A DNA stretch of 64,000 nucleotides from assembly GCA_019685655.1 (NCBI GenBank), contig JABFQP010000001.1, positions 1-64,000 on the forward strand, written 5' to 3'. The DNA is from Candidatus Bathyarchaeota archaeon A05DMB-5 (GTDB lineage: Archaea; Thermoproteota; Bathyarchaeia; Bathyarchaeales; Bathycorpusculaceae). The notes under the pieces were generated by a model, which saw only the letters and a program-made list of their open reading frames with translations, ran no database searches and was not told the origin of the DNA. Positions 8,975 to 55,888 of this stretch are shown here, piece by piece (position 1 is the first letter of the stretch; each line of letters starts with the position of its first letter). Position numbers and translations under genes: made by a program.

Positions 8975-9754
8975 TTATGGGTAGGTTTTTCCAAAGTTCA
9001 TTAACATGACAGCTATATCAGCCATTGTTATTCTGCCGTCCAAGTCCAAATCCCCGTGTGGATTCCATCTTAGGTGTGCCGGATAGGAACCAAAAGCATC
9101 TACGACTACCATGATATCATCGAATTTTACAACTCCATCTTCATTAATATCTGGTATAGGTGAGAAATTAAGTATACAGAGGTACGCAGACATTGTGAAG
9201 ACCGGCTTTTGTCCAGGTTCCAAGACAACAAAAGTTTCTTGCTGTAAGAACGTTATTTCTGTGCACAACACTTCATCGCTTGGAAGTTGTTGTATTGTAA
9301 AGTTGACTTCACATAATACTCCTAGATTTGTGACATCTACAGGTGTTTCTGGTGATAATGTTGCATTCACTTTTAAGTATCCAGTATCATCTACAACATC
9401 ACTTGAAGCAAAGGTTATTAATGCGGCTCCGTCAATAACAGAAGCAAAAACATTGTCGTCCGGTACCGAAACGTCTTGGAAGTTTACTATACTGTTGTTC
9501 TATGAAACAGAAATCTCCCATGCGACCAATTTTTCAATGTGAGTTATAGAGAACACCACTGTAAAAACACTGCCGATGGAGTGTTCTGAAGCTTTCAGTA
9601 TGAAGAAACTATCATCTGTTTCTGGATTAAGCATTCTTATTGTCGCAACCTCACCTTCAGCTTTAACTGTGAACCCGTTGCCTTTAAGTGCCAATGCTAA
9701 CATGCTCACTGACAACAGCACTACCATTATCTTGAAGGCCATTCTTGTAGACAT
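8975..9754 (-). pseudogene. Exported cohesin-dockerin protein interrupted by one in-frame TAG
   Basis: A single frame of 260 codons runs from ATG 9754 to the stop at 8975, broken only by TAG at 9500-9502 (codon 85). Before it lie a signal peptide (residues 1-30) and the first half of a cohesin-like domain. After it the domain continues naturally (VSVPDDNVFASVIDGAALI), followed by a dockerin with two loops (DINEDGVVKFDD and DLDLDGRITMAD) and the ending FGKTYP. Cohesin domains usually have Tyr at this strand position, so a TAT or TAC to TAG change is likely. A GAGGAG ribosome site precedes the ATG. It may be a recent nonsense mutation, a base error, or stop readthrough. TAG is a normal stop in many genes here, which argues against general pyrrolysine decoding. 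Confidence 0.75.
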
Positions 9755-26323: not shown

Positions 26324-27406
26324 CTATCCCAACCGCCCGATGGCTTCTCCTCTCACTTTTTTCCTAAATTCGCTACTCTCTTTTGCCAGAGTTTCCATAT
26401 TCTCGTTTGTTATTATTTTAACTTTAGGCAACTTGCTGGGATATAACCTAAAAAGATTAGCGAGCAAAGTTTTGTTTACTCCGCTTTTTGCTAACGATTC
26501 ACGAGTCCAATTCTCAACAAGCCGTAGGGTTTGCTCTTTTCCGAAAGCGGCAAAGGCATCTGCAATAACAGCGGTTACTATGCTGTTTTCTGTCAAAACT
26601 GCAATTTCAGCATTCTTCACGGCGTATTGGTTGCCATTGAAAGAAACTGTTAAGCCGCCGTGTTCGCGAACAAGTCTGAAGGCTTCAACGTCTGTTATGC
26701 TGTCGCCAACATACATAACATCCGCCAATGCAACGCATACTTTCTGCGCTACGTCCTTTATCGCTTCAGCCTTCTCGCAGCCGCCAACAGGATTAACCTC
26801 ATCCAAAATCTTTCCAAGCTCCATACTTGCCATTTCAGTCCAGAAAATTTCATCAAGCCTCCGAATCGTTTTCTGGTCTTGTTCTGAAAAATCCTCAATA
26901 GCCCTTGCATTTTTAGGAATAGTCATCAGAGGCATCTTGGCGATTTCCTTTGCAAGTTTTTCCAGTTTTGCTTTTTCCTTTTCTGTTATGCGATATTTGT
27001 CGATGTTTAGTTTTGTGTAGTAAGTGTTCTCGTATGGAAAAGCTATTGCTTTGCATAAGGCTTTTAGGTAATGCTCGTAGCTTGTGCTCACGATAAACGC
27101 GTAAGCCACTTTTCTAACGTGCCGCACCGTGTCCTTCACGTTTGAGATTAAAATTAGATTTTGCGCTGAGAACTCGCGCATTTTATTATCTGTAACATTA
27201 TAAGCTTTAAGGAAAGGAAGGATGAGCTTTAACGTGTCGCCAGCCTTGTAATGTGGTTTCTTGAGAACATCTGCCAAAACATCGTCATATTTGCTGATGA
27301 CCGTGAAGAGTTTGTCGCCGTCTGGAACAAAATGCGCTGTCAGTTCAAAGGCATTATCGTTTTTGGATATGGGTCCTTCACAGTCGGAAACGAAGACGCG
27401 CTTCAC
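26324..27406 (-). CDS. HAD-like phosphatase, EhaR/COG4030-like
   Basis: The 360-residue protein starts with a HAD-type motif I ([12 protein letters not shown], with the expected first Asp) and later has motif IV in [15 protein letters not shown]. The cap between them is large and helical. The pattern resembles archaeal proteins annotated as energy-converting hydrogenase subunit R; I recall this, and no hydrogenase genes are present here. The start is GTG overlapping the purD stop by four bases, so it is in the purine operon. A phosphatase acting on a nucleotide or cofactor is the most cautious reading. Confidence 0.65.
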
Positions 27407-28812
27407 TTTTTGCGCCTCAACTTCTCCATGTGTTTTATGCTCTTTTCTATGTGCTGTGGTGAGGCGATGTCTGTTCTGTGCCAGAGCGCTCCGCCTTTCA
27501 CGGCTTTAACGCCTTCCAAAGATAGTTGTCGTGCTTCGCTGATGTCTTCGCCTATGCCTATAACGCCTACGGCTCGGGATTTAAGCGCGAAAGTTTCGCC
27601 GTCACGCAGTTCCATTGCTGCTGGATAAACACGAACCTTGCCATGGTATTTTTTTGTCAGTGCATATGCTTTTGTCAGGTCAATATGCGTGCCAATTTCC
27701 TTTTTGTCCACTAGATGGGGGAACACATCCATGTAGCCGCCGTAGTTTGGCGGAACCTTATAAGTTAAAACCGTCGCTGCTTCTTCCAGCTCCACACGTG
27801 TTAGGCTGCCTTCCAAAATTTTGAAGCAAACATCCACAAAATCATCCTTCAAAATTGGCAGAATATTAATTATTTCTGGGTCGCCGGGTCGACTGTTATT
27901 CTCAAGAATTTTAGGCTCTTTGCCCGTGTGCATGAAAGCCACGTAAAAGGGAACACCTCGCAAGCCAGCATTATCTTTTCTTTTCCATTTTTCGAAGATT
28001 CTGTTAACAATTTCTATTTCTTTGGCTCTATCCGTTTTTGTCATGAAAGGCAAAACATCGCCAACATCTTTGTAGGAGCCCATGCCTCCTGTGTTTGGTC
28101 CTTTGTCGTCGTCAAAGGCGCGTTTGTAGTCTCTTGTTTCTGGCAAGGGCACGAGGTGTTTGCCGTCGCAGAAAGCTTGGAAGCTTGATTCTTCGCCTTC
28201 GATTTTCTCTTCTATTATGACCGCGCCATGTTGGAAATTAGCTAGAAAATGCTCCATAAGTTGCTCTCGGGTTGAGAAGTGGTCGCCCCAAACGCCAACG
28301 CCTTTTCCTGCAGCGGGCTGGTCTGGCTTCACAACAGCCATATTATTCAGTTCATCAAGCCATTTGTAAACTGCTTTTTTCGCTTCTTCCTGGTTTTTGT
28401 AGCTTTTTGGGTGGAAGATTTTGAAGCGAGGATTCGCCGTCGGAACGATTTCTTCGAATAGCATGCGTTGCTGCACTTTGCTTGCTTCTATGGCGCAGTC
28501 TTTTGTTGGGCAAATCATAGGTATGCCAGCGTGCTTTTCCACGAGGTCACGGACTCCTTCGATTATGGGTTTTTCTGGACCAACAATGCCAAAGTCGATT
28601 TTGTCTTTGTGGTTTTCTGCGAATTTGCAGATTTCCTCAACATTCAAGTCGGGTATGACCACGTGTTGTGTGGCGTTTTTTGCGTTGAAGGGGTTTCGTT
28701 GTTTATCTGCAATGTAAAGGTTCACATTGTAGTTTTGGCTTCGCGTGAAAGCGTCAATCATAGCGACTTCTCTTGCGCCATACGATACTACGAGTATGCC
28801 TACTTTTTCCAT
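27403..28812 (-). CDS. purD: Phosphoribosylamine-glycine ligase (GAR synthetase)
   Basis: ATP-grasp enzyme for step 2 of purine synthesis: phosphoribosylamine, glycine and ATP give GAR. The 469-residue sequence has the N-terminal substrate domain (GILVVSYGAREVAMIDAF), the central FGIVGPEKPIIEGV, VKPDQPAAGKGVGVWGD, IEEKIEGEESSFQAFCDG, GPNTGGMG and ENNSRPGDPEIINILP, all GAR synthetase hallmarks. It lies 61 bases after purF, whose product it uses, and overlaps the HAD gene by four bases. Confidence 0.95.
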   Translation of the reverse strand: MEKVGILVVSYGAREVAMIDAFTRSQNYNVNLYIADKQRNPFNAKNATQHVVIPDLNVEEICKFAENHKDKIDFGIVGPEKPIIEGVRDLVEKHAGIPMICPTKDCAIEASKVQQRMLFEEIVPTANPRFKIFHPKSYKNQEEAKKAVYKWLDELNNMAVVKPDQPAAGKGVGVWGDHFSTREQLMEHFLANFQHGAVIIEEKIEGEESSFQAFCDGKHLVPLPETRDYKRAFDDDKGPNTGGMGSYKDVGDVLPFMTKTDRAKEIEIVNRIFEKWKRKDNAGLRGVPFYVAFMHTGKEPKILENNSRPGDPEIINILPILKDDFVDVCFKILEGSLTRVELEEAATVLTYKVPPNYGGYMDVFPHLVDKKEIGTHIDLTKAYALTKKYHGKVRVYPAAMELRDGETFALKSRAVGVIGIGEDISEARQLSLEGVKAVKGGALWHRTDIASPQHIEKSIKHMEKLRRKK

Positions 28813-28873: not shown

Positions 28874-30361
28874 TCACATGTTTTGAACTAGCTGTTCTAT
28901 CTCGTAAAGGCGGCCTTTTTCTTCGTAGCCTTCAAGGAAACGTTTCTTCATTTCATCTGCGATTTTCTGTGCAAGCGGTGTTGGATACTTGCCGGTTATG
29001 CATGCCATGCAAAGCTGGTCTCGCGTGAAGCCTGTTGCCTTCACAAAGTTTTCTATTGACTGGTAACGCACCGCGTCTGCACCGATTATTTCAGCTATTT
29101 CTTCTGGCGTGTGTTTTGAGCCGATTAGTTGTCCGTAAGTTGCCATGTCTATTCCGTAGAAGCATGGTCCAATGATGCGTGGGAAAGTCACGAATAAGTA
29201 GACTTTTTTGGCGCCCATTCTGCGAAGCTTTTCTATCACAACTTTTGTTGTGTCGCCGCGGACTACGCTGTCTTCGGTTATTATGACACGTTTGGCTTCA
29301 AATTTTGTGGGTAAAATGTTGATTTTCTTGTCAATTGTTGCGTATCGTTCTTTGTTTAGGAGAATGAAGGCTCTTTCGGTCACGTAGCGATGTCTCCGCG
29401 AAGCCCTTTCCCATCTTAACCCAGACTCTTCATGCGCTCCCAAAGCAGCATCATCGCCTGTTTCTGGCAACGAAATGATTACGTCCGCGTCTTTAACTAT
29501 GTCAGGGTTTTCTCTGACAAGGTTTCTTCCAAACTCTTCGCGAACTTCATAAACGTATTTATCGTCAAACCGTGAGTCGGGACGAGCAAAATATGCAAAT
29601 TCGAAAGCGCAAAAGGCCTTATGGTTGCAATTGACTAGCTTTTCTTTTTGGAAACCGCTTTTTGTCACGGTTATGAGTTCGCCGGGTTCGATTTCGTGGT
29701 CTCGTTGAAAACCGTTTATGTCTAAGCCTACGGTTTCCGAGGAGAACGCAAAAATTGTTTTTTCCATGTTGTATCCAGCGCATAGTGGTCTTATTCCATG
29801 CGGGTCTTTAAAGGCGAAGAATTTGCCGTCTTTTGTTATGCCAGACACGGAGAAAGCGCCTTCAATTTCTTGCATGCATGCTTCAACTGCTGGCGTGAGA
29901 GATTTGCCTTTCATGAGTTCGATGAGGAGTTTGTGGCAGATGAGGTCTGCGTCGCATTCGTAAGAAAAGCCTAGAAACTCTTTAGTTATTTCTTTTTTTA
30001 TTTGGAATGTGTTGACTACGTTGCCGTTGAAGGAGACTGCGAGTTTGTGTCCGTTTTTTGAGGCTGTAACGGGTTGTGTGCCTTTTATGAGGGATTTCTT
30101 GTCGGTTTTTCCAGAAGTAGTGTATCTAACATTTGCGATGCCAACATTGCCTGGCAATCGCCCGAACCATTCTTGGATGGCGCTTGTTTTTATTTTAGGT
30201 ATTAGGTCTAAGCTCCTGTGCACATAGAATTTGCCATCGTGGTATGTGAGAAAACCGTGTGATTGATGCCCACGGTGGTTTTGGGCGCGCATTCCCCAGT
30301 ATATGTAAGGGAATATGGGCTGGTTTGCGTAGTTTATTGCGGCGAAGACTCCGCAGCCTAT
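28874..30361 (-). CDS. purF: Amidophosphoribosyltransferase, probable AUA start
   Basis: Step 1 of purine synthesis: PRPP plus glutamine gives phosphoribosylamine. The glutaminase half needs an N-terminal Cys, seen here as GCGVFAAINY, followed by RAQNHRGHQSHG. The C-terminal PRTase has the PRPP loop VIITEDSVVRGDTTK. The first ATG in frame (30292) would remove the catalytic Cys. No ATG, GTG or TTG exists between the upstream TAA and that Cys. An ATA at 30361-30359 lies seven bases after AGGAGGGG (30369-30376) and gives M-G-Cys, 495 residues. I therefore place the start at that AUA; a base error (ATG to ATA) is the alternative. purD follows. Confidence 0.9.
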   Translation of the reverse strand: MGCGVFAAINYANQPIFPYIYWGMRAQNHRGHQSHGFLTYHDGKFYVHRSLDLIPKIKTSAIQEWFGRLPGNVGIANVRYTTSGKTDKKSLIKGTQPVTASKNGHKLAVSFNGNVVNTFQIKKEITKEFLGFSYECDADLICHKLLIELMKGKSLTPAVEACMQEIEGAFSVSGITKDGKFFAFKDPHGIRPLCAGYNMEKTIFAFSSETVGLDINGFQRDHEIEPGELITVTKSGFQKEKLVNCNHKAFCAFEFAYFARPDSRFDDKYVYEVREEFGRNLVRENPDIVKDADVIISLPETGDDAALGAHEESGLRWERASRRHRYVTERAFILLNKERYATIDKKINILPTKFEAKRVIITEDSVVRGDTTKVVIEKLRRMGAKKVYLFVTFPRIIGPCFYGIDMATYGQLIGSKHTPEEIAEIIGADAVRYQSIENFVKATGFTRDQLCMACITGKYPTPLAQKIADEMKKRFLEGYEEKGRLYEIEQLVQNM

Positions 30362-30467
30362 TTGGGTTCCCCTCCTGTCTGATGGGCAATAGAAATGAGT
30401 AGTTATTTATCAGCTTTTAGAAACATTTTTAAGTAAAAAGTCCATGAACTGTAAGCTATGCCTAATT

Positions 30468-44871: not shown

Positions 44872-44957
44872 GCTCATCTTTGCTTTCTCTCTTTTATTTT
44901 CTTAATCCAAAATGAAAAACCATCATGGTCCTATCACTTTAAGATAAGTAACTTTGG

Positions 44958-45033
44958 TAGCGGGGGGTTGATTTGAACAACCGATCTCTGGGTTATGAGC
45001 CCAGCGGGTTAATCCTGGCTACCCCACCCCGCT
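44958..45033 (-). tRNA. Initiator tRNA-Met (CAT)
   Basis: On the minus strand the acceptor AGCGGGG pairs with CCCCGCT, with an A1-U72 end and an A discriminator, as in archaeal initiators. The anticodon arm is CTGGG, loop CTCATAA, CCCAG, giving CAT with the three G-C pairs typical of initiators. The T arm GGTTG-TTCAAAT-CAACC is perfect. The length is 76 bases and there is no intron. Confidence 0.95.
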
Positions 45034-55034: not shown

Positions 55035-55313
55035 ATGTCAGAAAGCAACTCGGTATTGATCGGAAATAAGCCAGTAATGAACTACGTACTGGCTTGCATA
55101 ACCCTCTTTCACGGCGGAGCAAAAGAAGTAAATGTTAAAGCAAGAGGGCGATCTATAAGTCGTGCCGTAGACGTCGTCGAGGTCGTTAGACGCCGATTCC
55201 TGCCAGACGTAAAGATCAAGAAAGTCGGCATTGGAACGGAACAAATGGCACCCAGAGAAGAGGGTAGCACGCCCACAAACGTAAGCACAATCGAGATAAC
55301 CCTAGAACGCTAA
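55035..55313 (+). CDS. albA: DNA/RNA-binding protein Alba (second copy)
   Basis: From ATG 55035, which follows GTGAGG, the product has 92 residues with the Alba core [48 protein letters not shown] and MAPREEG. The frame is open from 54963, but the extra residues are unlike the family. A TATA-like ATTTAAAAG near 54889-54897 implies a leader of about 110 bases, similar in length to that of the first Alba. The two copies could differ in regulation or form mixed dimers. Confidence 0.94.
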
Positions 55314-55378
55314 ACAGCGTTCGCGTAAATGTTCAGAGCTCCGCCCCCCTCCTTTATTTGTGGAGGGCACTGTTTCAG

Positions 55379-55888
55379 GTGAAAACAGTATTATGTAGTT
55401 TCTGTTTAAAGAGTGGGATACTGTGTCAGAAGTGTTCGGCTAAGTTAAAGTCTGGAGAAATAAGTGAGCTTGATTTGAGGATTGCTCGTTTGTTATTGTC
55501 TTTAGAGGAGAGGTATCCTTCTCTTCAGAATGTTTATTTTCACGGTGCGGTTGAGGTGGATGGGACTTTGGCTTTGGTTGTTGGGCATGGTGATGTTCCT
55601 CGGCTTTTGGGTTATGGTGGTAAGATTATGAAGGCGTTGAGTGAGGAGACTGGCAGGAAAGTTCGTGTTTTGGAGTATGGGGTTGATGACCGTAAGTTTT
55701 TGGAGGATTTGTTTGCGCCTTTGAGCATAATGACTATTAACACTATTTGGTTGCCTGATGGAACTACGGAGACTAGGGTGATTTTGAAGAAGCGGCGTGG
55801 TGCGCAACCGCCTTTTGATGTAAAGGCTTTAAAGGAGATTGCGCGTAAGGTTCGGAACATGGTCTTGCGTGTGGAGTTTGCGGATTAA
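55379..55888 (+). CDS. KH-domain protein, NusA-like, with N-terminal zinc knuckles
   Basis: From GTG 55379 (GGAGG at 55362-55366), about 169 residues. An N-terminal CSFCLKSGILCQKC zinc motif leads to two alpha-beta KH-like modules. The second has GYGGKIMKALSEETGRKVRVLE with the GGKI loop typical of KH RNA binding. Archaeal NusA-like proteins have this layout. The aspS gene follows on the same strand. It may act in transcription elongation or translation. Confidence 0.8.
   Translation: MKTVLCSFCLKSGILCQKCSAKLKSGEISELDLRIARLLLSLEERYPSLQNVYFHGAVEVDGTLALVVGHGDVPRLLGYGGKIMKALSEETGRKVRVLEYGVDDRKFLEDLFAPLSIMTINTIWLPDGTTETRVILKKRRGAQPPFDVKALKEIARKVRNMVLRVEFAD

Follow-up and report, generated by a model that had tools for sequence, protein, structure and literature searches.

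A conserved AUA codon as the probable start of purF in a family of Archaea

Introduction

How is purF translated when its reading frame holds no canonical start codon ahead of the codon for the catalytic N-terminal Cys? The question is raised by a stretch of 64,000 nucleotides of DNA from the Bathyarchaeota, uncultured archaea (the window, that is, the whole stretch analysed), for which a preliminary description had proposed that purF begins at an AUA codon. Comparison with relatives supports this reading: the Shine-Dalgarno (SD) sequence, the start codon and the next codon each appear to carry signatures of selection. If true, archaea, which are held to initiate at AUG, GUG and UUG, would also possess a conserved start of the AUA type, and gene callers restricted to ATG, GTG and TTG would truncate PurF in these genomes, deleting its catalytic Cys. 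The codons found at this position in relatives (ATA, ATG, ACG, GTA and ATC), with their matching SD states, would moreover form a natural series on start choice by the archaeal ribosome.

The purF locus and its start region

The purF gene (amidophosphoribosyltransferase) lies on the minus strand (28874..30361; 495 codons counted from the ATA, plus the stop), with purD (27403-28812, minus strand) directly downstream. Its product matches NCBIfam TIGR01134 over profile positions 1-432 of 432 (304 bits, E 2e-90) and contains the Pfam domains GATase_7 and GATase_6; because this full-profile score falls under the curated cut-off of 350, we regard the protein as a divergent PurF, a name supported by the catalytic Cys, the PRPP-binding motif (VIITEDSVVRGDT, aligned with VVMVDDSIVRGTT) and the purD neighbour. 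The alignment with B. subtilis PurF (1gph, E 8e-71; 1ao0, E 4e-71) begins exactly at Cys1 of the mature enzyme, which is paired with the Cys encoded by TGC at 30353..30355 (minus strand). In B. subtilis PurF, which has a normal start codon, an N-terminal propeptide is cleaved off to expose Cys1, as would be the case for the window protein; the propeptide comprises 11 residues in the former, whereas it would consist of Met-Gly only in the latter.

Downstream of the in-frame TAA that closes the purF frame on its upstream side (30407..30409), the minus strand reads ATA ACT ACT CAT TTC TAT TGC CCA TCA GAC AGG AGG GGA ACC CAA ATA GGC TGC. The 17 codons between this stop (30409-30407) and the Cys codon include no in-frame ATG, GTG or TTG, as the preliminary description had stated, nor any CTG; the in-frame ATG to which it pointed (30292) is the earliest of the frame and lies 21 codons past the Cys. 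All the coordinates that it gave for the candidate start are correct: the ATA at 30361-30359 (minus strand, 30359..30361) stands two codons ahead of the Cys codon (30355-30353) and 7 nt from the SD AGGAGGGG (minus strand, 30369..30376), and is followed by GGC (minus strand, 30356..30358), a Gly codon for residue -1 of the predicted propeptide. The SD is complementary to the 16S rRNA 3' end of the same genome (GGATCACCTCCT, complementary to AGGAGG). A second in-frame ATA (30406-30404), directly after the TAA, has no SD.

Two start arrangements among relatives

The start of purF could be read in 101 genomes (80 of the same family and 21 of the same order), which fall into two arrangements. In class A (24 family and 21 order genomes), the start lies 7-8 codons ahead of the Cys (with, for example, the propeptide MGEQLKIA), the start codon is ATG in all except one order-level GTG, and an A-rich box is located ~28 nt upstream of the ATG. 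Class B (56 genomes from 15 genera, all of this family) is devoid of upstream ATG and presents an SD-like region followed by the pattern NNN-GGC-TGY, with the putative start codon at a fixed distance from both the SD and the Cys. This codon, two before the Cys, is ATA in 43 genomes (including the same-genus genome), ATG in 6, ACG in 4, GTA in 2 and ATC in 1, while GTG and TTG occur in none of the 56. The six relatives with ATG at exactly this codon back the start position and do not refute it. The recurrence of the arrangement in the 50 non-ATG genomes, which belong to 14 genera, is far beyond chance, and sequencing error is excluded as the source of the ATA, since the genomes derive from numerous metagenomes assembled separately.

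Both classes encode the same enzyme behind an apparently homologous upstream region, and family members of class A carry an internal Ile codon (ATA/ATC) at the homologous place, but class A differs from class B by its more distant ATG, its A-rich box, the absence of an SD and a -1 codon that is never GGC. Class A leaders (e.g. L093 of genome G031) look gaplessly alignable with window positions 30400-30350 (ttctattgccca...), and sequence comparison suggests that the two arrangements are homologous.

Some relatives fall outside this picture. One purF (L229, G045:C97:6598-7252) has an in-frame TGA in a short match reaching the contig end, and is possibly a pseudogene or an assembly edge. Eleven genomes of the same order (G062, G064, G068, G071, G077, G080, and likewise G086, G089, G092, G095 and G098) contain only a distant PurF of 31-33% identity, and their purF may have been replaced by that of another lineage. 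In G015 (91% complete), G009 and other family genomes, the window-type purF was not found, only a GlmS-like match; these are possibly purine auxotrophs or incomplete bins.

Signatures of selection around the start

An SD-like core is found 6-8 nt before the putative start codon in 50/50 non-ATG genomes of class B, whereas ahead of the class A start it occurs in 2/45, and the class B leader is variable apart from the SD and ATAGGC. The third base of the start codon underwent 6 changes on the PurF tree, compared with 8-20 in 10 conserved Ile columns and a synonymous background with a median of 14 third-base changes per conserved column. ATG has taken the place of ATA at exactly this codon in five lineages, and among the genomes with an ATG start 4/6 have lost the SD core, versus 0/50 of the others (Fisher p 4e-5); counted as independent pairs, the loss accompanies ATG in 3/5 (sign test 0.25, with five lineages only), so this trade-off between SD and AUG lends weak support to the ATA start. 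The trade-off is seen only in the core-motif count, as SD duplex energy gave no clear trend with the start codon, and several members of the largest genus have a modest SD, with a duplex of about -4.5 kcal/mol.

The second codon is constrained as well: 54/56 class B genomes have GGC there, and the codon changed 2 times on the tree, whereas the third base changed 12-27 times in 25 other conserved Gly columns. Why should one Gly codon be so strongly preferred? The base preceding TGY forms an NTG triplet out of frame, and C at this place would yield CTG, the weakest start. In class B, 2/56 genomes form an out-of-frame ATG, GTG or TTG in this way, compared with 41/45 in class A (a Fisher test without correction for kinship gives p 3e-21), and one of the two class B exceptions, G026, has an ATG start. 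We read the conservation of GGC as probable avoidance of out-of-frame NTG, which is expected if initiation is weak, and which fits an archaeal model where the initiator tRNA probes the triplets in the vicinity of the SD (PMC6237735). RNA structure was rejected as the cause, the RNAalifold consensus being weak (-1.6 kcal/mol).

Together, the sequence comparisons strongly support the start position: the conserved N-terminus does not appear obtainable from any canonical start, and AUA is conserved across species with a properly spaced SD.

Proposed mechanism and origin

Very probably, purF is translated from the AUA at 30361-30359 by means of the SD and the normal Met-tRNAi, this weak start being kept by selection. 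The strong SD (30376-30369) would position the 30S subunit at the AUA, with which the ordinary initiator Met-tRNA (anticodon CAU) would pair while tolerating an A-C mismatch in the third position, presumably making Met the first residue. The resulting Met-Gly-Cys... product would then be processed to free Cys1, with Met-Gly removed by methionine aminopeptidase and/or by propeptide autocleavage, and a Gly at -1 seems compatible with both Met removal and autocleavage. The choice of frame would be protected by the SD and by the purge of nearby out-of-frame NTG codons. A variant initiator tRNA was rejected: the CAT initiator tRNA-Met of the window (44955..45033, minus strand), with its GGG/CCC anticodon stem, is normal, and none of the tRNAs resolved carries a TAT anticodon (three tRNA loci being unresolved).

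Class A is probably ancestral, because all order-level relatives belong to it, and the A-rich box ~28 nt before the ATG, combined with the lack of an SD, suggests that its mRNA is leaderless. Class B would have formed by loss of the upstream ATG and gain of an SD, initiation moving to the former internal Ile codon. A single origin of the SD/ATA class was tried on the PurF tree, whose deep branches are weakly supported (85/35), and grouping it as one clade was rejected (p-AU 0.007); class B thus likely arose or reversed repeatedly, or was transferred.

Alternative explanations

Could the AUA start be of no benefit, a leftover internal Ile codon not yet improved to AUG after loss of the upstream ATG? 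The presence of ATA/ATC (Ile) at this place in class A, so that the codon predates the loss, and the emergence of ATG in five lineages both favor this explanation, which we consider unlikely although far from negligible. A merely poor start should be quickly replaced, yet ATA persists in 43/56 genomes although a single transition converts it to ATG and synonymous sites change often, which suggests that weak or adjustable initiation is selected for; moreover, in one clade ACG occurs beside ATG as start codon.

According to a second alternative, translation starts further upstream, from a canonical start in another frame followed by a frameshift or through a spliced leader, and the ATA is no more than a normal Ile codon. 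The occurrence of Ile, Val, Thr and Met at -2 can be read as a residue preference, and the internal Ile codon of family class A relatives at the same place agrees with it. However, 39/50 non-ATG class B genomes have no canonical in-frame start at all, several of them have a stop 2-3 codons ahead of the Cys (the shortest open stretch being two codons, TAA ATA GGC TGT in G035), and 35/50 have no canonical start in any frame within 25 nt. In addition, the leader lacks coding-like conservation, the SD points at the ATA, and the third base of the ATA is more constrained than that of Ile codons, which makes an upstream start improbable.

The internal ATG at 30292, the first canonical start in the purF frame and the one that a gene caller would choose, would shorten the enzyme by the N-terminal Cys and 21 residues. 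Such a product would lack Cys1, on which catalysis depends, along with the CGVF/CGIF segment that every relative read has conserved. Between G000 and G001, most changes ahead of this ATG fall on third positions (1,1,5); a start at this ATG is accordingly very hard to credit. Equally far-fetched is mRNA editing that creates AUG (A-to-I at AUA, C-to-U at ACG), as one type of editing cannot make AUG from ATA, ACG, GTA and ATC alike, even if ATA and ACG are each one base off ATG, and we know of no such editing in archaea. Its precedent is the ACG-to-AUG editing known in plastids (PMC9845219).

Why a weak start may be kept

Returning to initiation at AUA, the conservation of this codon across many genera suggests that weak initiation is useful rather than accidental, most likely by holding PurF synthesis low or by making it dependent on initiation conditions. 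Archaeal aIF1 makes initiation complexes less stable when the mRNA is non-AUG (PMC6237735) and would be a natural control point for the purF start. AUA may even be a regulatory element, PurF synthesis, and hence purine flux, being set by start-codon stringency (the aIF1/aIF2-GTP state), in what would be the first such archaeal control, kept and perhaps regained several times in the family; we advance this only tentatively, and rather doubt it. Simple weakening does not explain why GUG and UUG, the usual weak starts, are never seen while GTA, with two differences from ATG, is present. The efficiency of AUA in archaea is itself uncertain, because aIF1 rejects non-AUG starts (PMC6237735) and AUG, GUG and UUG are the only starts listed for archaea in a review (PMC7531240).

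Comparison with known systems

A search of the open-access literature turned up neither an archaeal AUA start nor any mention of one in purF. In E. coli, the AUU of infC is a rare start codon kept by selection and used as a control element, a situation resembling our reading of purF; however, IF3 thereby controls its own synthesis, whereas PurF is no initiation factor and archaea use aIF1 and aIF2. This autoregulation of infC is mentioned in a study of S. aureus (PMC13009471), in which ccpN, citZ, infC and cvfC1 have AUA/AUU starts with a strong or extended SD and a reporter output of about 10-30% of that of AUG (PMC13009471). The starts of ccpN and cvfC1 are conserved among staphylococci, and the output of the ccpN start depends on the growth medium (PMC13009471). 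These genes share with purF a non-canonical start and a strong SD, but they are bacterial, IF3-modulated and mostly code for regulators or translation factors, not for the first purine enzyme, and their starts were shown by ribosome profiling and reporters, while the evidence for that of purF is comparative. Mis-called purF starts have precedents: in a curation of archaeal purine genes, moving them upstream restored the Cys (PMC3261824).

Other features of the genome and window

Is AUA initiation a general habit of this genome? Over the syntenic parts of 264 kb, 89 genes were set against the genome of the same genus, and purF was the one gene with a clear coding pattern well ahead of its first canonical start, so that a general habit was rejected, although this small sample does not exclude a few other such cases. 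Of two weaker cases, one (C1:238647-239210) has a plausible GTG and the other lies at 139943-140350; conservation alone, at ~90% identity, was uninformative. A scan for Sigma-70 promoters and terminators found nothing, as expected for an archaeon.

Two further loci of the window may be mentioned. An open frame at 8975-9499 (minus strand) has a dockerin-like C-terminal part (DINEDGVVKFDDIMVVVDAFG, DLDLDGRITMADIAVMLMNFG) and, behind a preceding stop, runs for 43 codons without canonical start; it looks like a gene fragment. At 55268-55888 (plus strand), a NusA-like protein (PRK06418, 142 bits, below cut-off) has its first ATG 120 codons in, with TTG and GTG codons near the start of the profile match.
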